Source of the DNA: a virus
Direction: 5' to 3' (one strand)
Length of the DNA stretch: 22,669 nt
Virus record (IMG/VR): IMGVR_UViG_3300027736_000267
Location: 1 to 22,669 of that record
Shown: positions 1-20,890 of the stretch, piece after piece
Position numbering within the stretch: position 1 is the first letter of the stretch
Layout: each line of letters starts with the position of its first letter
Position numbers and translations under genes: made by a program
Notes under the pieces: generated by a model
Seen by the model: only the letters and a program-made list of their open reading frames with translations
Databases searched by the model: none
What the model was told of the DNA's origin: nothing

Positions 1-1163
1 GCTTTACCTACAAAACCATTCCCACCAAAATACGGGTCATCTGAGAATATTTCCCAACAGTTAGCATTCCAGTTCGTAAAGTTACACCACGCCTTCGTGA
101 TGTTGTTCATCACATACTGTTGCTGTTGAGAACCTTCAGCTATTGGCACATTTACAAACAACGCATTGTTTTTTGAGTTGTAGATAATCTGCCAACCGAA
201 ATTATCTTGATACGTCCTTGTAGCTTCAGCAAACGCGCCTTGAATCTTGTCAGATAGCGCAATCCTCGGATCAAGCCGTGAGCTTTGAATCGCCGACGCT
301 AGAGGGTACAAACCGTCCAAGGTAAGGATCAGCAGATCGCCTGCATACTTGAACATACAGCGCTTGCCGATAGGCGTGCCGAGCTTCCAAACGCCCATCA
401 GCGCCCACGTCGATGCAGAGGCCGGATCAGTCCCTCGATAGGCAATGATCTCGCCATTGCTAGTGACAAACACCAAATTGTCGTCAGCGCCGTAGCCTGC
501 GTCGATTGTCCATGTGCCAATTGAGACAAGATAGCCGCCAAAACGAGCAACCGAACTCAAGTCGATTTGCTCAGCAACACCCGCTATTGAGGAAGTCGGC
601 AGATACCATGCAACGAGGGTGTTCTTTTGAATGAACCATACCCTGTTCTTGAACAGCGTCACATCGTCAAGCGTTGTGGTAGTCACGCCCGTAATGGCCG
701 GGGATGATGATGCTGTGATTGCAGTCCACGTCGTGCCGTTGTAGAGCAAAGGCGCATCAACGCCATTGGCGCAGTACATGAACGAGCCGCCAGGCGTGGA
801 TACGTTGACATACTCCCACCGCGAGTTTGTCAGTCCTGAGACAACTGGAGCGCCTACAGCACCACCTGCTGTTACGTTGTAGATTTTCCCGCCCGCTACT
901 GCGAACAGTTTTTCTGACGCGCCGCCTGAATAGTTAAACAGACTCTCGACTTGCCCCGTGATGCCCGTTGCGAACTGTTGATAGCCACCGCGCAGATTGA
1001 CGCTCGACACCGCGGGAAACATATTGGTCAACTGCACAGCATCAGTCGCTTCCATGTTGGCGAGCGAATCCCGAGCGTTCCAACCACCAATTGGAGCAGG
1101 CAAGGAAGCCACTTGCGCGGCTGTGCCTTGAACCATCATTCGGCGGCGTGCGCTTGTTGCCAT
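1..1163 (-). CDS. P22 gp10-like neck/DNA-stabilisation protein, C-terminus cut by window edge
   Basis: An open frame of 387 codons reads leftward from an ATG at 1163 to the window edge without a stop, so only the N-terminal part is present. It begins MATSARRRMM and has an early segment PIGGWNARDSLANME followed by LTNMFP and LRGGY. This is the kind of N-terminus seen in phage neck proteins of the packaged-DNA stabilisation type (P22 gp10-like), which close the portal channel below gp4. The rest is rich in Gly, Thr, Ser and aromatic residues with beta-strand character (LFAVAGGKIYNV, LLILTLDGLYPL), as expected for a beta-rich tail protein. It is coupled to the upstream adaptor gene by a one-base TGATG overlap; no strong independent ribosome site is visible. 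The family assignment rests on context and overall look, so the exact neck role is an inference. Confidence 0.75.
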   Translation of the reverse strand, partial: MATSARRRMMVQGTAAQVASLPAPIGGWNARDSLANMEATDAVQLTNMFPAVSSVNLRGGYQQFATGITGQVESLFNYSGGASEKLFAVAGGKIYNVTAGGAVGAPVVSGLTNSRWEYVNVSTPGGSFMYCANGVDAPLLYNGTTWTAITASSSPAITGVTTTTLDDVTLFKNRVWFIQKNTLVAWYLPTSSIAGVAEQIDLSSVARFGGYLVSIGTWTIDAGYGADDNLVFVTSNGEIIAYRGTDPASASTWALMGVWKLGTPIGKRCMFKYAGDLLILTLDGLYPLASAIQSSRLDPRIALSDKIQGAFAEATRTYQDNFGWQIIYNSKNNALFVNVPIAEGSQQQQYVMNNITKAWCNFTNWNANCWEIFSDDPYFGGNGFVGK

Positions 1164-2071
1164 CAGTTAGTACCGTAGCCCGAGTCGGGGATATTGTCGT
1201 AACCGATCAGGACTGTACCTGGACGCGGTGCGAGCGACAGATTGGCAGACGACATATCGAGAGCTTTAGCAGCCTCAAACTCGGTCATATAGTTACGCAT
1301 CATCGCTGTGGTATCAAAGCCTTTGGCCTCGAAATACTTCAGCTTTGTTGCGTTGACCATCAACCGATCAGGATAAATGCAAGTGTCGGTGTCGGCAGTA
1401 AACGAGTTTTTTACCGTTCCCGTTGAAGATGCAGCCCATCCTTTGCTGCGGTACTCCAAACCGAGATATTCAGCCGTAGACATACCGGGCCATATCTGAA
1501 AATACGCACCCAACATACGCCAACGAATACGCGGGCCAGTTGAGATGTAGCCCGACAACAGCCATTCCCATTGCTGAGCATCTTCCGGCCCGAGCATTTC
1601 CCAATGCTTGGATTTGTCCCACATAGTGCGCGGGACAAGACTTTCGTAGTCAGAGGGAAGCGAATACTTGATTTTCTGAAAGTAGGCAGTAGCACCTGCG
1701 GCGTTTGCAGAGAAGTCCTGATTGACTGTCACTTGCGTACCTGAGTCAACCGAAACGATATAGGTGTTCTGATTGATGCCTGTGCCTTGAACCTGATAGG
1801 TAGTGTCCAAGCCCGTAGTGGAGGCCATCGTGATCGTGCGGGCTGCGGTCGTCCAAGTGCCGGTGGTCGTAAGATACTGCGTGTAAAACGAATATTGTTT
1901 AGTCAGTTCCCGCCAAGCGTGGCGACGAAGAAACTCGTACCCGTTCGCGTTCATCAACGCGAGTATTTGGATAACGTCTTGGTTTGTATTGCCTGCTACG
2001 CTTGTCGGGGTTGCAACGCCAAGCTCGTTAGTTGTTTGCTGAACTAACTCCAACATTGTCGTCGTTGACAT
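1163..2071 (-). CDS. P22 gp4-like head-tail adaptor with an inserted beta-rich domain
   Basis: 302 residues. The N-terminus (MLELVQQTTNELG, then NANGYEFLRRHAWRELTKQ) and the block after about residue 133 (KYSLPSDYESLVPRTMWD, then WEMLGPEDAQQWEWL) look like the phage adaptor/tail-accessory family of P22 gp4 type, which docks under the portal ring. Between these parts, residues about 66-132 form a Thr/Gly-rich segment (TGTWTTAARTITMAST, VQGTGINQNTYIVSVDSG, QVTVNQDF) resembling small immunoglobulin-like or decoration repeats. It appears to be an insertion into the helical adaptor fold. The start at 2071 is chosen because AAGGAAG lies 5 bases upstream; it overlaps the preceding gene by 44 bases. 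The gene is followed directly by the gp10-like gene, the normal order of neck genes. Adaptor identity is fairly secure; the function of the insert is unknown. Confidence 0.75.
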   Translation of the reverse strand: MSTTTMLELVQQTTNELGVATPTSVAGNTNQDVIQILALMNANGYEFLRRHAWRELTKQYSFYTQYLTTTGTWTTAARTITMASTTGLDTTYQVQGTGINQNTYIVSVDSGTQVTVNQDFSANAAGATAYFQKIKYSLPSDYESLVPRTMWDKSKHWEMLGPEDAQQWEWLLSGYISTGPRIRWRMLGAYFQIWPGMSTAEYLGLEYRSKGWAASSTGTVKNSFTADTDTCIYPDRLMVNATKLKYFEAKGFDTTAMMRNYMTEFEAAKALDMSSANLSLAPRPGTVLIGYDNIPDSGYGTN

Positions 2072-2594
2072 CGTTCTTCCTTGGTCTGCCAGGTCGTCGT
2101 TGCTCTAATAGCATCGCCATCTGTGCCTTCAGTTCTTCAAGCTGTGCGCGAGTTTCTTCTAACTCGCCACTCGAAACCTTTTGATTCTTGTTCAACAAGT
2201 AATTGCGGGCACGTTCGCGCAGTCCTACGCCACCCATGCCGATCCGTTGAAGCTGATTATCGCTTGCAGTTGCTACTTGTTCAACTGTCTGAAACTTGAG
2301 AATCTGCAACTCAGCTAGTTGATTGTCGTTCAACTCATCGGGACGATCTTGAAACCAATCTTTCAGCGGCGTGCCGATAACCGGGCCATCACCGCTTTGC
2401 ATCTGAAAATGCAGCCATTGGCGCGGGAAACGCTCTTTGTGGTCATCCCGCACCGGCTGATCAATTACTGTCGTCTTATCGCCTGGCACTACGATTTTTA
2501 TGAACGGCTTGCCCTTGTAGGGGTCTTTGTCTGACGTGTAGAACTCGACGTAAAGCTGCGAGTCTGCATTGTTGATATCTGAATCAAGTGCCAT
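2028..2594 (-). CDS. Phage protein with coiled coil and AT-hook-like C-terminus
   Basis: 188 residues from the ATG at 2594, preceded by a strong CAGGAGA ribosome site; an in-frame codon further upstream lacks such a site. The first half is mixed alpha/beta (LYVEFYTSDKDPYKGKPF, then a KIVVPGDKTTVIDQPV segment). The middle contains a helix-hairpin-like stretch, QLAELQILKFQTVEQVA followed by LQRIGMGGVGLRERARNYL. Residues about 145-170 are a short heptad-like coiled coil (ELEETRAQLEELKAQMAMLLEQ). The tail RRPGRPRKND matches the AT-hook core (GRP flanked by basic residues), which binds the minor groove of AT-rich DNA in other proteins. It lies between a small virion-like protein and the adaptor, so a structural or assembly role is likely. 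I do not recognise a named function; DNA binding is inferred from the tail only. Confidence 0.75.
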   Translation of the reverse strand: MALDSDINNADSQLYVEFYTSDKDPYKGKPFIKIVVPGDKTTVIDQPVRDDHKERFPRQWLHFQMQSGDGPVIGTPLKDWFQDRPDELNDNQLAELQILKFQTVEQVATASDNQLQRIGMGGVGLRERARNYLLNKNQKVSSGELEETRAQLEELKAQMAMLLEQRRPGRPRKNDVNDDNVGVSSANN

Positions 2595-2617
2595 TGTTTT
2601 CTCCTGTGGGGAAAAAT

Positions 2618-2977
2618 TTATGCAGTAAGAACGGATGCCCAAGTAGTTGCGCTAGTAGCAAACAGAATTACAGTTTTTGCGGTTGCAAGGCTTAAAGTTG
2701 ATGCAGCAGCATTAATCGTCGATCCTGCTTTCGGGTAGATCGTGATGGTCTGTCCCGAATCATTACGAATGCCAACCATTGCGCCTGCTTCAGTCGGTGG
2801 CAAAATCACGCCGGTACTAGCCGATGAAGTCGTTAGCGTGTTCCATACCGCTGACAGTTGCAGAGCGTCAGCAATCGTGCTGCCAACAGCAACGAGGCCA
2901 GTAGCGCCATCGCCGCAGATCGAAATCGTTGACAATGCAGAATTGCCTGCACCAAGAACACGTGAGGGGATAGCCAT
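2618..2977 (-). CDS. Small Ala/Thr-rich virion-associated protein
   Basis: 119 residues, preceded by AAGGAG five bases from the ATG. The protein is almost free of charged residues after the N-terminus. It is dominated by Ala, Ser, Thr, Gly and Ile, with strand-like segments (TISICGDGATGLVAVGST, GVILPPTEAGAMVGIRN, QTITIYPKAGSTI, KTVILFATSATTWASV). This composition, the MAIPSRVLGAGN start and the place among coat and neck genes fit a small beta-sandwich decoration or minor structural protein of the kind common in aquatic podoviruses. No signal peptide or membrane segment is apparent. The function is inferred from composition and position. Confidence 0.75.
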   Translation of the reverse strand: MAIPSRVLGAGNSALSTISICGDGATGLVAVGSTIADALQLSAVWNTLTTSSASTGVILPPTEAGAMVGIRNDSGQTITIYPKAGSTINAAASTLSLATAKTVILFATSATTWASVLTA

Positions 2978-2986
2978 GACTGCTCC

Positions 2987-3463
2987 TTATTTAGTGCCAA
3001 CAATGCGTAGATCGCGCTGTGGCAAGTGAAAAAATGGTTCTTGGAATTGCACGTTCTGAAAACCTGCTTCGGTAAACAGCGCACCGATTTCAGCTTTAGA
3101 GTAGCACCAATGATGCCGCATCGTATCAGGTTCGGGCAGTCCGAACAATGGTCGCCCAATCAAGTCATCATGCCGATAGCCCGCATTCCACAAAGCAATC
3201 ACGTTATCAAGGCATGGCATCTCAAGCGATAACTGACCGCCTGGCTTCAGTACCCGCCGCCATTCCAGTAAGGTTTGTTTCACCTTAAGGCGTTCAATAT
3301 GCTCAAACAAGTGGATAGCGGAAATCTCGTCGGCATGGTCATCCGGCAAATCAAGTTTCGTTACATCCGAGATCATGTCTTGATCTCCAATGCAATCGAC
3401 GTTGACCCATCCTGGCCAATGCCTGTCACCTGCCCCTAGATTGAGGCGAATAGCGTGTTCCAT
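2987..3463 (-). CDS. Class I SAM-dependent methyltransferase
   Basis: 158 residues. The SAM-binding motif I is visible at residues 7-13 (LNLGAGD), followed by an acidic residue at the end of strand 2 (VNVD, D23). A post-motif III signature typical of Methyltransf_11-type enzymes lies at 71-76 (VLKPGG). The segment HLFEHIERLK fits the region after strand 4. Enzymes of this shape often act on sugars or other small molecules and are found beside glycosyltransferases. Here the gene overlaps the upstream glycosyltransferase by 28 bases, so the two are probably co-translated. The substrate cannot be read from the sequence; O-methylation of a glycan is the best contextual guess, and DNA methylation is unlikely because no target-recognition region is present. 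Confidence 0.85.
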   Translation of the reverse strand: MEHAIRLNLGAGDRHWPGWVNVDCIGDQDMISDVTKLDLPDDHADEISAIHLFEHIERLKVKQTLLEWRRVLKPGGQLSLEMPCLDNVIALWNAGYRHDDLIGRPLFGLPEPDTMRHHWCYSKAEIGALFTEAGFQNVQFQEPFFHLPQRDLRIVGTK

Positions 3464-4272
3464 TGCGCTCCAATCTGTTCGCGGGAATAGTGCATTCGGA
3501 TGTAGCGTTGGCCTTCTCTGACCAAAGCGTTCAATTCATGCCTGTAAGCCTGGGAGAACTGAATTCCACCATTAACAGGCCCAAGGTAACAAAAGTGTTT
3601 GAATTCCTTGTTTATAACAATCTTACTGCCTATTACAAAACATCCCGCCATGATTGCATTGATCAGCCGATTGGGACTTTTGTAGGTTTCCTCGGCATTT
3701 GGCAACAAAACAATGTTGCTTTCACGCAATAACTGTTCTTGCGCGGCTGTAGACCACGGCACGCACTCAATCAGATCGTTTGGCCCTGTGCAATACGTCA
3801 TATCGTACTTCTTGAGCATTGCGTGGTACGGCAATATCTCTTTCAGATTGCTTTGATGCCCAAGCCACAAAAACTTGTTGCCGTCTGCGTGAGGCTGCCC
3901 CCTGTTTTCCCATGAATCGGGAATTACTTGGGCATCCCTTTCCGCATAGATGCGAATTCGTCGCGCCATTTCCGCAGTCGGACACACAACTGCATGAGCT
4001 TCTCGAGACATTGCTTCATAAAGTTTTCCTAAGTTTGGATGCTTGAAATGGTCGTCGCATATATCGACCACCGTCTTAGCACCCCGAGCATTAATTTGTC
4101 TTAAGACTTCAAGATCGTCAGGATGCGGCTTAGCAAACACCGATATATCCGCACCCGTAGCATTGATCCGCGAGTCGTCGTTGCAGTATGCAGAGGGTAT
4201 CTGCGCCCTCAGTCGGTAGGATGCCATCTCAGCACCACCGCGATGCAGCCAGGTTACGCTGCGAGCTTCCAT
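3436..4272 (-). CDS. GT-B-fold glycosyltransferase-like protein
   Basis: 278 residues. The N-terminal part has alternating strands and helices (RSVTWLHRGGAEMASYRLR, ISVFAKPHPDDLEVLRQI, KTVVDICDDHF) like the acceptor domain of GT-B enzymes. The segment HAVVCPTAEMARRI (about 93-106) is the common beta-alpha unit before the linker. The C-terminal half holds FLWLGHQSN (134-142) and the diagnostic nucleotide-sugar site region KSPNRLINAIMAGCFVIG (198-215), in which family 4-like transferases normally have a Glu or Asn in the helix. The protein is shorter than typical 350-400 residue GT-B enzymes. It overlaps the DUF115 gene by 19 bases and the methyltransferase gene by 28. Donor and acceptor are unknown; virion or host-surface glycan modification is inferred. 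Confidence 0.75.
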   Translation of the reverse strand: MEARSVTWLHRGGAEMASYRLRAQIPSAYCNDDSRINATGADISVFAKPHPDDLEVLRQINARGAKTVVDICDDHFKHPNLGKLYEAMSREAHAVVCPTAEMARRIRIYAERDAQVIPDSWENRGQPHADGNKFLWLGHQSNLKEILPYHAMLKKYDMTYCTGPNDLIECVPWSTAAQEQLLRESNIVLLPNAEETYKSPNRLINAIMAGCFVIGSKIVINKEFKHFCYLGPVNGGIQFSQAYRHELNALVREGQRYIRMHYSREQIGAQWNTLFASI

Positions 4273-5030
4273 GCGCTCCTAACCCGCAGGATTTCGGGTA
4301 TCAGCCCGTCTCCCCGCGCTTCAATCGTAATGTCCGGCATAACAGTAAACACAAGTTGAAACTCGTTTGCTTGCTGCGCCATGGCCATGTTGCTAATGAA
4401 CTTTTTGCGGTGCGGTGCTTCGCCAACAAATATTTCAATCGTTTGCCCGGCTTTTTCACCCGTAAAGCGTTTCGTTCCATCCTCACGGATTGAGCTGTCA
4501 TAGCCGTACAGGATAAACTTGCGAAAGCCTAACAGGTAACCGAGATTGATAGCTCTGAGGCCGGAAGTTGTCCCACCGCCTACTGCAAGCCTTTTGCCTA
4601 TCGCTTGGCATTCAGCATCTTGCGACCATGAGTGCCATAGCAGCACATTTTTGTCGGCAAGCCAATCAAACATCACCGGCGGGCAGCGTGAGGCCACCAT
4701 ATAGACCGTGTGATCGTTCTTTTTCTGAATGCAGTTAGTTCTGTCCCGTGGATCAAGATCGACCCACAAATCAGGCTCTATGCCTTTGTCGCATAGGAAA
4801 TCGTGTGCGCCTTTGATCGCGCAGATCGTCCTGCCCTGTTCGCGTTGCTGACGTATCTCGTCAAAAAACTCAGGCATGGATGGGCCGCTCCCTACCAACA
4901 CAAGTGTACCGTCGTGTCGGGCGGGAGCGGGTTGTAGCTCAGGAAGTCCCCGCGCAAGCGCAGAGCGGATGTACTCCGAATTTTCGTCAGGCGTACCTGC
5001 TGCCTGCACAGAGATTTCCAGTTTATTCAT
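4254..5030 (-). CDS. DUF115 / MptE-like (Maf-type glycosyltransferase-related) protein
   Basis: 258 residues. The glycine-rich loop VLVGSGPSMPEF (45-55), the segment GIEPDLWVDLDPRD (83-96) and the pair GGGTTSGLRAINLGYLLGF (151-169) plus YGYDSS (175-180) are the pattern of the DUF115 family. That family covers 6-hydroxymethylpterin diphosphokinase MptE and the Maf proteins that transfer nonulosonic acids to flagellin. Maf-like members act on sugars, so beside a GT-B enzyme and a methyltransferase a sugar-transfer role is more likely than pterin synthesis. The start ATG overlaps the stop of the upstream capsid-associated gene as TAATG. It is the first gene of the three-gene cassette. The precise reaction is unknown. 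Confidence 0.8.
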   Translation of the reverse strand: MNKLEISVQAAGTPDENSEYIRSALARGLPELQPAPARHDGTLVLVGSGPSMPEFFDEIRQQREQGRTICAIKGAHDFLCDKGIEPDLWVDLDPRDRTNCIQKKNDHTVYMVASRCPPVMFDWLADKNVLLWHSWSQDAECQAIGKRLAVGGGTTSGLRAINLGYLLGFRKFILYGYDSSIREDGTKRFTGEKAGQTIEIFVGEAPHRKKFISNMAMAQQANEFQLVFTVMPDITIEARGDGLIPEILRVRSAWKLAA

Positions 5031-5509
5031 TAAGTACCTGCGATGCCCGAAGCGATGTGCGGGTAGCCTGCAATACAGGTCACAGCAGTCGCGTTGGAAA
5101 TCGAAGTGGTAGCTACCAGGCCAAACACCGCGCCACCCGAAACCACGGCGTCATCCAGCACGCCAGCGGTTGCGGTGGTGTAGAGCGGAACGTTCGGGGC
5201 AGCATTAGCAGCTAGGTTAACAATCACCTTGCCACCAAGTTGCACCCAACCGTAATAGCCGGAAGCGATTGAGGTCTGAGCGAAACCAATACGCTTGCAA
5301 GTTGCTGCGAGCGTGGTGGTCATCATCTGCGCCTTTTGGGTGTCATAGACTGCAACAGCCGCATAGGTGCTGATTTCAGACAAAGCTTGGACGTAAACAG
5401 CTTGTCCACCATCGGAGGTATTGACCACAGTACCGGTCGTGAATTGCGAGGTCGAATCCACGTTGGTCAGGGTACAACCCGCCACATTACTTACGCTGAA
5501 AGTTGGCAT
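5030..5509 (-). CDS. Capsid-associated small protein (possible decoration protein)
   Basis: 159 residues with an AAGGAG ribosome site upstream of the ATG at 5509. The sequence is rich in Ala, Thr, Val and Gly and poor in charge, with several strand-like stretches (VVNTSDGGQAVYVQAL, GWVQLGGKVIVNLAAN, VPLYTTATAGVLDDA). It lies 12 bases downstream of the major capsid gene, in the position normally taken by a head decoration or stabilising protein. A decoration role is inferred from position and composition; no catalytic motif, signal peptide or transmembrane helix is seen. Confidence 0.75.
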   Translation of the reverse strand: MPTFSVSNVAGCTLTNVDSTSQFTTGTVVNTSDGGQAVYVQALSEISTYAAVAVYDTQKAQMMTTTLAATCKRIGFAQTSIASGYYGWVQLGGKVIVNLAANAAPNVPLYTTATAGVLDDAVVSGGAVFGLVATTSISNATAVTCIAGYPHIASGIAGT

Positions 5510-5521
5510 GTTATTTTCTCC

Positions 5522-6523
5522 TTAAGCAATCAGCACGCCGCAGAACTGCGGGCCGCTGCTAGTCAAGTTACCGGCCCAACCAATCAGCTTAACGATTGCA
5601 TCTTGGTTGACTGCTTGGCGTTCGCCACCGATAGGAACGAAGTTCCGGTCAGCGTGCGGACGGAACATCAGGTACTTGGTGTTCAGGAAGAACATATGGT
5701 TAGCGGTTGCAGATGAACCGATACCACCATCAAGCACCACGTCCGAAGCCATACCTGCGCCAAAGTATTTCAGCGAGGCAAAGCCTGCACCGGCCATCGA
5801 CGAACCGCTATCGGTAATGCGCTGAATCGACTGAAGCGATTGCAGGTACAAACGATAGTAGTTGTTGTCAGCCACGATCAGATCAGGCTTGTCCGTACCC
5901 CGGATCAACTGAACCGCAACGCTGTCCATGTACTGCTGAATGTTGCTTGCAGTAGTAGCAGCACCGCCGTTAGTCACGCCGGAGTAAGACACCGAGCGCC
6001 AAAACGTCCAGGTCGCACGATCAATACCGCCGTAAGTACCGGTGGTCGGGCTATCAGGCACAGCAGCGCCCAAGCCGGTCAGGTTCTTACCTGCGTTACC
6101 CGTGCCGTCAAGGTACAGGTCGCCGCTGATACGGTTAGCGATCTGAGCCTCGGCAACAGCCATACGGCCATCGAGCAAATCAATTATAGCTTCTTTGCCC
6201 GAATTTTGAATCATCTCAAGGCCGCTGATCGAAACTGCCGAAGCGTACTGAGTGATCGAGAACTGCGCCGCAGAGATCGGGCTGTTTTGGGACACGTTCA
6301 ACACTTCATAGCCGGAATAGCTGTTGGTGTTGTTGGTTGCCGTGTCGTTGTACATAATCTCTTGCAAGATCACGTTACCACCGGAGAAGGTCTTAACGTT
6401 TCCGCGTTCCTTCAGTCGGCGCAAGAGGGCGTTGTTGTTTGTTACGTTATCAGCGAGTTCACCAGTCCGGCTTTGAATGTTAGTGGCGATAATGTCGCTG
6501 ATAGAACTATTGGCGAAAGCCAT
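5522..6523 (-). CDS. Major capsid protein (HK97-fold type)
   Basis: 333 residues; the ATG at 6523 follows AGGAGA. The N-terminal third contains a helical arm (ISDIIATNIQSRTGELADNV, then ALLRRLKERGNV) followed by an E-loop-like segment with SGGNVILQEIMYNDTA. A spine-helix region VSISGLEMIQNSGKEAI leads into RMAVAEAQIANRISGDLY. The C-terminal half has P-domain/A-domain features: PDLIVADNNYYRLYLQSLQ, MFFLNTKYLMFRPHADRNF and a closing hydrophobic strand. Length, position after the scaffold and before the putative decoration protein, and the overall look all match coat proteins of P22-like and related podoviruses. No N-terminal protease-processed delta domain is apparent, consistent with a separate scaffold gene. 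Confidence 0.9.
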   Translation of the reverse strand: MAFANSSISDIIATNIQSRTGELADNVTNNNALLRRLKERGNVKTFSGGNVILQEIMYNDTATNNTNSYSGYEVLNVSQNSPISAAQFSITQYASAVSISGLEMIQNSGKEAIIDLLDGRMAVAEAQIANRISGDLYLDGTGNAGKNLTGLGAAVPDSPTTGTYGGIDRATWTFWRSVSYSGVTNGGAATTASNIQQYMDSVAVQLIRGTDKPDLIVADNNYYRLYLQSLQSIQRITDSGSSMAGAGFASLKYFGAGMASDVVLDGGIGSSATANHMFFLNTKYLMFRPHADRNFVPIGGERQAVNQDAIVKLIGWAGNLTSSGPQFCGVLIA

Positions 6524-16168: not shown

Positions 16169-16498
16169 TTAATGCTGCTCTTCGGAGCCTGCACATTCGA
16201 CAGTCTTTCGGTCAGAGGCACTATCTTCGCCACCTCTCTGCGTGCTGTTGCAGACCATAGCCACCAGTAGCACTCTTTCAATCGCAGCCCTGTTGCTCTC
16301 ATTGCCGACTGCGTTGTAGTCAAAGAAAAACCCATCACGGCTGGGCTTCGAGCTGCGGTGGAAGAGAACGGAAACGGTACAGTCTCGACAACCGAAGCCC
16401 ATGCGTGATGGGTCTATTGTTCCCGTTCGCGCTTCCACACGCGGCCCGATCTTTCTCTCGGACAAACACACAGTAAACGATTTTTTTTTGTTTGTCAA
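16169..16498 (-). CDS. Ash-like small phage ORF (uncertain)
   Basis: 109 residues in an open frame starting at TTG 16498, next to the regulator gene. The phrases VEARTGTIDPSRMGFGC, RDCTVSVLFHRSSKPSRD and GFFFDYN resemble proteins labelled Ash family or Icd-like in prophages; that is recognition from memory. The two similar phrases PSRMGF and PSRDGF are encoded by the arms of a long inverted repeat (16330-16413). There is no good ribosome site, and the TTG start coincides with a TTGACA that could be a promoter -35 box. The region could therefore be a structured RNA with an incidental frame. If translated, the product would be a small early regulator. Confidence 0.45.
   Translation of the reverse strand: MTNKKKSFTVCLSERKIGPRVEARTGTIDPSRMGFGCRDCTVSVLFHRSSKPSRDGFFFDYNAVGNESNRAAIERVLLVAMVCNSTQRGGEDSASDRKTVECAGSEEQH
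16330..16413. repeat. Long inverted repeat inside the Ash-like ORF
   Basis: ACCCATCACG-gct-GGGCTTCG (16330-16350) pairs with CGAAGCCC-atg-CGTGATGGGT (16393-16413): 18 matched bases per arm with a symmetric three-base internal mismatch and a 42-base loop. On the leftward transcript the second arm runs into TTTTTCTTT, so a terminator or attenuator is possible. Such a long paired structure in coding DNA is unusual. Confidence 0.75.
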
Positions 16499-20318: not shown

Positions 20319-20457
20319 TCTTGCGTTCAAGGACAACGACAAGGTGCTGTGGTGCAAGGTCAAAACTTGTCCCGAAACTGAGCAGCGCCTAATGACTGAG
20401 CAGCAGTACCGGTGGATTATGAAGAAAAAAGTAGACGCTCATCAGTTCGACGCTTGA
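20287..20457 (+). CDS. 56-residue Cys-containing small protein
   Basis: A short gene read directly: ATG 20287 with AAAGGAT seven bases upstream and TGA at 20457. The product begins MENYQRCKVCDLAF and has C7-x2-C10, C23 (LWCKVKTC) and C28, a plausible four-cysteine zinc site. The C-terminal helix is QQYRWIMKKKVDAH. It is the last gene of the rightward operon and its final 41 bases overlap the 3' end of the lysozyme gene on the other strand. Function unknown. Confidence 0.7.
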   Translation: MENYQRCKVCDLAFKDNDKVLWCKVKTCPETEQRLMTEQQYRWIMKKKVDAHQFDA

Positions 20458-20890
20458 CGAGTCCGGGCAAGACTTTGCCCCCTGCCTTGGTGAACTTCAT
20501 AAACTCAGCCGCAGCCGCTTCATAATCCCGGCGCAGCACCTTTTGACGGAGGGTGCTGCGCTGTAGTGTTCCCAGGCCAAGATTGAAAGCAAAGCTGACG
20601 AGAGCATCAAATTTACTTTGGGCAAGCTCGCCGCAATATTGGGTAACGCCGCGCTCAAATCGAGCCAAATCGTTTGCAAGAATTGCATCAACTTCCCCTT
20701 TGCTCCACACCCGATTGTCGTCAGGATGTAAGTCTACTTTCAGCCGATCAGCCATTGTCAGCTTGGCGTGGTCGGGATACATGACGTGCCCGATACCGAT
20801 AGTCCATAGGTTAGCCGGGCAGCGGTAAGGCTTGTATCTCACGCCCTCATGGTGTGCAATCATCTTGATGCACAGCGGCGAGACTTTCAT
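20417..20890 (-). CDS. GH24-type lysozyme (endolysin)
   Basis: 157 residues, similar in length to T4 lysozyme and lambdoid R proteins. The catalytic region is AHHEGVRYKPYRCPANLWTI. Glu15, Cys24 and Thr30 have the T4 spacing of E11-D20-T26 (9 and 15 residues), but the Asp is replaced by Cys, as also known for phage P1 Lyz. The segment IGIGHVMYPD, FDALVSFAFNLGLGTLQRST and the closing LPGLVKRRTDERLL are further family signatures. There is no signal peptide or SAR-type hydrophobic N-terminus, so export through a holin lesion is expected. It overlaps the holin-like gene by ATGA. It cuts peptidoglycan to release progeny. Confidence 0.93.
   Translation of the reverse strand: MKVSPLCIKMIAHHEGVRYKPYRCPANLWTIGIGHVMYPDHAKLTMADRLKVDLHPDDNRVWSKGEVDAILANDLARFERGVTQYCGELAQSKFDALVSFAFNLGLGTLQRSTLRQKVLRRDYEAAAAEFMKFTKAGGKVLPGLVKRRTDERLLFSS
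20465..20480 (+). terminator. Short hairpin just after the rightward operon (possible weak terminator)
   Basis: GGGCAA (20465-20470) and TTGCCC (20475-20480) form a perfect six-base stem with a four-base loop, beginning eight bases after the last rightward stop codon. No T-run follows, so intrinsic termination would be weak. The sequence is also inside the lysozyme gene on the other strand. Confidence 0.3.
20531..20561. other. Perfect 10-bp inverted repeat inside the lysozyme gene
   Basis: GCGCAGCACC at 20531-20540 and GGTGCTGCGC at 20552-20561 pair perfectly around an 11-base loop. It encodes lysozyme residues around LQRSTLRQKVLRR and lacks a T-run on either strand. It lies about 75 bases beyond the end of the rightward operon, so converging transcripts would form it. 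Confidence 0.7.

Follow-up and report, generated by a model that had tools for sequence, protein, structure and literature searches.

What do genes for sugar-modifying enzymes do among the head genes of a phage, and on which molecule would their products act? The question is raised by a linear fragment of 22,669 bases (the window), corresponding to the entire IMG/VR record IMGVR_UViG_3300027736_000267, in which genes for an MptE/DUF115 protein (MptE), a glycosyltransferase (GT) and a methyltransferase (MT) follow the capsid genes. A reading based on the sequence alone had treated the three as one unit, decorating either the virion or a host surface glycan. The comparisons reported below argue for a different unit, and suggest that MptE is probably a glycosyltransferase dedicated to the phage's own decoration protein, Dec1, whose glycan would be extended and methylated by GT and MT.

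Gene order and surroundings of the locus

The genes are transcribed from the minus strand in the order portal (profile match 1e-187), scaffold-like protein, MCP, Dec1, MptE, GT, MT, Dec2, Mx8 p50-like protein and tail genes. The features used in the analysis are the following.

5522-6523, minus strand: major capsid protein (MCP); phrog_9953, E 9.1e-107
5030-5509, minus strand: Dec1, 159 aa, capsid-associated, proposed glycan acceptor; phrog_29386 'virion structural protein', 3.5e-7
4254-5030, minus strand: MptE/DUF115 (PF01973), 258 aa, Maf-like core domain, proposed Dec1 glycosyltransferase; Pfam, 1.3e-15
3436-4272, minus strand: GT4-like (GT-B) glycosyltransferase (GT), 278 aa, accessory; Pfam GT4 models, in family members
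2987-3463, minus strand: class I SAM methyltransferase (MT), 158 aa, accessory, proposed glycan O-methyltransferase; Methyltransf_23/11
2618-2977, minus strand: Dec2, 119 aa, 3' of the cassette, linkage control and possible second acceptor; comparison of relatives
2028-2642, minus strand: Mx8 p50-like protein (phrog_20268); 4.7e-12, tblastn matches at the loci of Mx8 and BUCT555
1163-2071, minus strand: tail protein downstream of the module; phrog_6013, 3e-38

The phrog matches of MCP, portal, tail protein and Dec1 bear out the earlier statement that the three genes lie amid structural genes, and the overlaps given for them, 19 bases between MptE and GT and 28 between GT and MT, are exact. Dec1 and MptE overlap by 1 base, in a TAATG stop/start junction. 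A clear Shine-Dalgarno sequence precedes MCP, Dec1, GT and Dec2 but not MptE. Scans for promoters and terminators gave counts no higher than expected by chance. The p50-like gene is listed with a TTG start, and an ATG located 16 codons later is its likely start. At moderate divergence, dN/dS values of 0.02-0.07 for MptE, 0.08-0.15 for GT and 0.07-0.15 for MT were obtained; the three genes are under purifying selection and, being also conserved across many independent contigs, are not chance ORFs.

Some observations were made on other parts of the window and on the neighboring capsid gene. The MCP gene, uninterrupted in the window, carries inserts of roughly 230-260 nt in seven relatives (L007, L146, L005, L015, L025, L236, L305), at sites varying between codons for aa about 53, 60, 84 and 308; one insert reaches 723 nt, and stop codons were seen in L146 and L005. 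The insert of L007 (4488-4707) is a group I intron (Rfam RF00028, 62.5 bits, E 1.6e-13), and the other inserts tested, although similar-looking, were not recognized by Rfam. At positions 16195-16316 (minus strand) the window matches the Betaproteobacteria-1 RNA (RF02932, 70.7 bits), possibly hinting at a betaproteobacterial host. Comparison of MCP against MAG contigs produced eight matches, in bins of unrelated phyla, so that no host was inferred from it. A putative lysozyme-like endolysin was noted by eye at 20417-20890 (minus strand), and the small genes beside it may form a lysis region.

Dec1 and MptE in related phages

An initial collection of 176 loci was later supplemented with loci carrying a short Dec and with fusion loci; since sampling was by similarity to the window genes, the frequencies given here are not population frequencies. 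MptE was found in 98 of the 177 intervals between MCP and the p50-like gene, always together with a long Dec1. A short Dec occupies 70 intervals, all lacking MptE (three of these proteins match both Dec models), four, from distant records, contain a long Dec without MptE and five match neither model; the crossed combination, short Dec with MptE, was never encountered. When PF01973 was sought throughout 12 long records with a short Dec, no such gene was detected anywhere.

Profile comparison identifies Dec1 as a homologue of p49 of phage Mx8 (hhalign probability 99.6%), a protein that carries the annotation 'major virion structural protein'. That the short Dec is a truncated long Dec was not established (hhalign 35%), and the notion that a long Dec1 always needs MptE was discarded: Mx8, Mx9, L180 and L271, all more distant, have the long form without it, and a long Dec therefore does not require glycosylation. 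Ser/Thr content is not higher in Dec1 than in the short Dec, and is uninformative as a predictor of glycosylation.

On a tree of the flanking genes (MCP, p50 and tail; 139 rows) the presence of MptE changes eight times. Dec type switches along with it in all six supported independent pairs (sign test p 0.031, a test that rests on these six pairs), and Dec2, present in 72/72 MptE-positive rows of the tree set, tracks MptE in only about 2.5 of six. Sequences diverge together as well. Pairwise distances of Dec1 and MptE correlate with a rho of 0.81, which remains at 0.77 as a partial correlation given MCP, Dec2, p50 and tail and is reached in 0/500 permutations; the partial value is 0.36 for MCP and Dec1, and -0.05 for MptE and Dec2. 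Discordant pairs number 0 for Dec1/MptE, and 25+10 = 35 for Dec2/MptE.

The comparison of the window with its near-identical relative L146 shows the same at the level of a single event. Nucleotide identity is 93% for MCP, 60% for Dec1, 58% for MptE and 89% for Dec2; along the alignment it runs at ~95% over most of MCP, falls to ~60% over Dec1 and MptE, returns to 77-79% over GT and MT and then to 89-92%, with breaks at the start of Dec1 and the end of MptE. Relative to L146, exactly these two genes have been exchanged.

The two genes may also be linked in expression. In 55 of 68 relatives the MptE ATG falls at a distance of -1 to +4 nt from the stop codon of Dec1, a count favored by picking the ATG closest to the stop, and this arrangement is consistent with MptE being translationally coupled to Dec1. 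Hitch-hiking of adjacent genes, the chief rival to a functional pairing, could explain part of the Dec1-MptE correlation; against it stands the fact that Dec2, on the other side of MptE, does not follow, this control consisting of one gene. The core of the locus is thus a two-gene unit, Dec1 plus MptE, beginning upstream of the three genes originally grouped together; GT and MT, found in 25 of the 98 MptE-positive intervals, are optional.

MptE is associated with virion genes elsewhere too. In phages of an unrelated type (L282, 4935-5777; L281, 2068-2910) a relative of MptE comes directly after an uncharacterized gene and is itself followed by a phrog_644 gene and then a tail-protein gene, indicating that the association recurs. 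The tail-protein gene close to the L282 relative, the invariable presence of Dec2 and the proximity of MCP would fit a scheme in which MptE glycosylates the virion on one of these other proteins (Dec2, MCP or a tail protein), the link to Dec1 reflecting compatibility in assembly. Such a scheme is unlikely, as Dec2 shows neither co-variation nor concordance with MptE, and MCP identity is still roughly 90% or higher among relatives in which that of MptE has fallen to about 30%. Dec1 is preferred as the acceptor.

The enzymes and the variants of the slot

A profile built from 27 relatives of MptE, searched against the PDB, matched the Maf protein 5mu5 at 1.2e-10 and archaeal HPPK at 5e-5, with GT42 sialyltransferases at the edge of noise. 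The AlphaFold (AF2) model of MptE (pLDDT 88) gave the same ranking in Foldseek: 5mu5 was the best match (E 2.2e-10, TMq 0.71), HPPK structures followed at TMq 0.50-0.54 and the sialyltransferase ST8SiaIII at about 1e-3. Judging from profile and predicted fold, the nearest solved structure is that of a Maf flagellin glycosyltransferase and not of the pterin kinase after which the family is publicly named; the kinship with Maf put forward in the sequence-only reading, and the structure comparison it proposed, come out in its favor here.

That MptE is a true 6-hydroxymethylpterin diphosphokinase, as its Pfam name says and as the second place of HPPK 8sd5 (TMq 0.54) among structural matches might suggest, is nevertheless highly improbable. 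Besides being outscored by Maf in both sequence and fold, this function would have to accommodate the replacement of the LDGD motif of 8sd5, whose acids are presumably catalytic in MptE/HPPK pyrophosphokinases, by LD-[PA]-R: D93 and R95 are invariant in 27/27 members, and Arg95 aligns with the second acid. The domains fused to MptE in some relatives (see below) are glycosyltransferases and methyltransferases, not folate enzymes.

The best viral matches in BFVD are three proteins of uncultured Caudovirales (A0A6J5L5C1, A0A6J7XC21, A0A6J5PVH5), named '6-hydroxymethylpterin diphosphokinase MptE-like', a naming that is probably misleading. No match to the window MptE or GT was found by tblastn at 1e-3 among 50,697 phage records; the matches of the L135 and L126 fusions to such records were set aside, running through the GT or MT domains only. 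A scan of genome contigs with MptE, by a pattern method reaching close relatives only, detected no cellular relative.

The window GT has no Pfam match of its own. Within its family the matches are weak, Glyco_transf_4 being found in 11/17 members (best 3.9e-5) and Glyco_trans_1_4 in 10/17. The structural model has a pLDDT of 56.5, with an unreliable C-terminal half, and its best matches are to the GT4 enzyme BshA (E 3e-4); the structure comparison proposed earlier lends the GT4 assignment weak support. In the GT4 EX7E motif the second Glu is replaced by N, C or S in 17/17 members. MT matches Methyltransf_23 (1.9e-8) and Methyltransf_11 (1.5e-7) over the cut-off. The SAM-binding motif I (L9-G-A-G-D13), together with D23 at the acidic end of beta 2, is invariant in 11 members, in keeping with the class I assignment made from the sequence; the closest named model, the mycofactocin oligosaccharide methyltransferase MftM, is weak (2e-6, below its cut-off), and the MT profile had no match in the PDB. 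Of the motifs initially described as intact, that of MT has been kept, and those of GT and MptE are altered, at the second EX7E Glu and at the pyrophosphokinase acid changed to Arg.

GT4 and MT always occur together, in 25/25 loci (on the tree, in 18 of the 72 rows with MptE); the survey of related phages called for by the sequence-only reading did find the three-gene block, as one form among several. Among the 72 rows, Dec1 and MptE stand alone in 38, are accompanied by GT4 and MT in 11 and by GT4, MT and a GT8-like gene in seven; in 12 Dec1 precedes an MptE-MT fusion (about 430-450 aa) and in four a GT-A-MptE-MT fusion (about 655 aa), fusions having been called by the length outside the MptE domain and confirmed by Pfam in four examples. 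The remaining form of the slot contains a short, unrelated-looking Dec and no MptE. The slot contains no MptE in Mx8, Mx9, BUCT555, ppBjS10J-1 and other phages in culture whose capsids are related. The natural fusions point to a single pathway in which MptE takes part together with glycosyltransferase and methyltransferase domains. The methyltransferases of the slot come from different Pfam families (Methyltransf_23/11, _25-like and _24), which suggests that methyl capping has been selected repeatedly.

Two further features of the slot were recorded. The three-domain fusions (L126, 7621-9585; L131, 7610-9574; L122, 7604-9571; L128, 7185-9164) join in one 655-aa protein a phrog_1962-like glycosyltransferase, related to P1 PmgQ/HdmD, to MptE and Methyltransf_24. 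In L032, L039 and L152 a protein of 151-157 aa, HNH-endonuclease-like by its look, is inserted upstream of or next to Dec1.

Variable content and the HNH-like genes are what would be expected if the site following the capsid gene held neutral or selfish cargo, with Dec1 and MptE moving together by adjacency only. This explanation is quite improbable, given the strong purifying selection, the conserved stop-start junction, the failure of Dec2, at the opposite side of the slot, to follow, and the recruitment of different methyltransferase families to one place. A dedicated Dec1-MptE pair is in better agreement with these data.

Proposed pathway and comparison with known systems

In the pathway proposed, MptE would act as a soluble Maf-like enzyme moving an activated host sugar onto Dec1. 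The donor would be a host nucleotide-sugar, possibly a CMP-ketosugar. In this phage the GT4-like enzyme would then add a further sugar, and MT would cap the glycan, rather than a protein, with a methyl group, leaving a methylated glycan on the virion surface. The window shows no genes for sugar synthesis, as had been stated earlier, and the NeuB and CMP-sugar synthetase (CTP_transf_3) families are also missing from 27 relatives of 31.6-37.2 kb; the donor would therefore have to come from the host, and might conceivably be a nonulosonic acid.

The virion as the target, suggested at first by co-expression of the sugar enzymes with coat proteins, gains from both their location and the co-inheritance of MptE with Dec1. 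The same tight co-inheritance disfavors the other target then considered, a surface glycan of the host (LPS or capsule) altered late in infection for superinfection exclusion or release. COG4627-like methyltransferases are indeed frequent in polysaccharide loci. Phage glycosyltransferases that change the serotype of the host are also known (PMC12619734). Such a role is improbable here, as neither a strong trans-membrane segment nor a partner using lipid-linked donors was seen, and MptE, encoded within the head operon and probably coupled to Dec1, follows this neighbor in presence and sequence but not Dec2. Hypermodification of phage DNA, of the glucosylation type, is the role of many phage glycosyltransferases (PMC12619734); the chances that it applies here are very remote, since 24 relatives carry no gene of the thymidylate synthase or dCMP hydroxymethylase families and the enzymes lie in a late structural operon, linked to Dec1. 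Modification of the phage's own Dec1 remains the favored reading.

A broader proposal, advanced tentatively and with somewhat more doubt than confidence, is that of an exchangeable 'glyco-serotype' cassette, in which the Maf-like enzyme and its cognate Dec1 are swapped as a unit and elaborated by glycosyltransferases and methyltransferases recruited repeatedly and independently, whether as separate genes or in MptE-MT and GT-A-MptE-MT fusions. If true, it would diversify the sugar coat throughout an extensive Mx8-like family of phages known only uncultured.

Glycosylation of phage particle proteins has been shown mainly in mycobacteriophages. A search of the open literature, in one library, found no report of virion glycosylation by a phage DUF115/MptE protein; both the enzyme family involved and the way it is paired with a decoration protein seem to be new. 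In many uncultured phages a different enzyme family, Maf/DUF115, labelled publicly as pterin kinase, seems to be linked to just one capsid decoration protein. If the reading holds, the pair would be a compact, soluble enzyme-substrate system in which the effects of sugar-coating a capsid (adsorption, particle stability, avoidance of removal) could be tested, its variants would form a natural series for glycan engineering, and the 'MptE-like' annotation in viral databases would be corrected.

Among known systems, the Maf nonulosonate glycosyltransferases of flagellin (5MU5, Clostridium botulinum CbMaf) share with MptE the central Maf_flag10/PF01973 domain, with its sialyltransferase-like fold, and the position of the gene next to that of the structural protein thought to be modified. 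Maf proteins consist of an N-terminal Rossmann-like, a central and a C-terminal helical domain (PMC11339370). The phage protein, in its 258 aa, has the central domain only; its neighbors are capsid genes, with a decoration protein instead of flagellin, nonulosonate synthesis genes were not found, and GT4 and methyltransferase partners or fusions accompany it. Lacking both the three domains and the flagellin context, phage MptE was not classified as Maf. Archaeal MptE/HPPK (8SD5) belongs to the same Pfam family and has the same overall fold, but differs by the LDGD acid, by a lower structural similarity and by gene context. The BFVD 'MptE-like' proteins have the same fold (TMq 0.83-0.89, 30-36% identity) and are multidomain proteins of 540-700 aa. 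The accessory enzymes resemble GT4 BshA, in GT, and MftM-type glycan methyltransferases, in MT, only weakly, GT missing the second EX7E Glu and MT scoring far below the MftM cut-off.

In the mycobacteriophages Che8, Corndog and Myrna, phage glycosyltransferases decorate capsid or tail proteins (Freeman et al. 2023, as cited in PMC11256854 and PMC12363180). The system described here is alike in combining a phage-encoded glycosyltransferase with a virion protein as the proposed target, and is known from metagenomic sequence and linkage; its Mx8-like lineage and the different location of its genes, rather than a comparison of the enzymes, set it apart.
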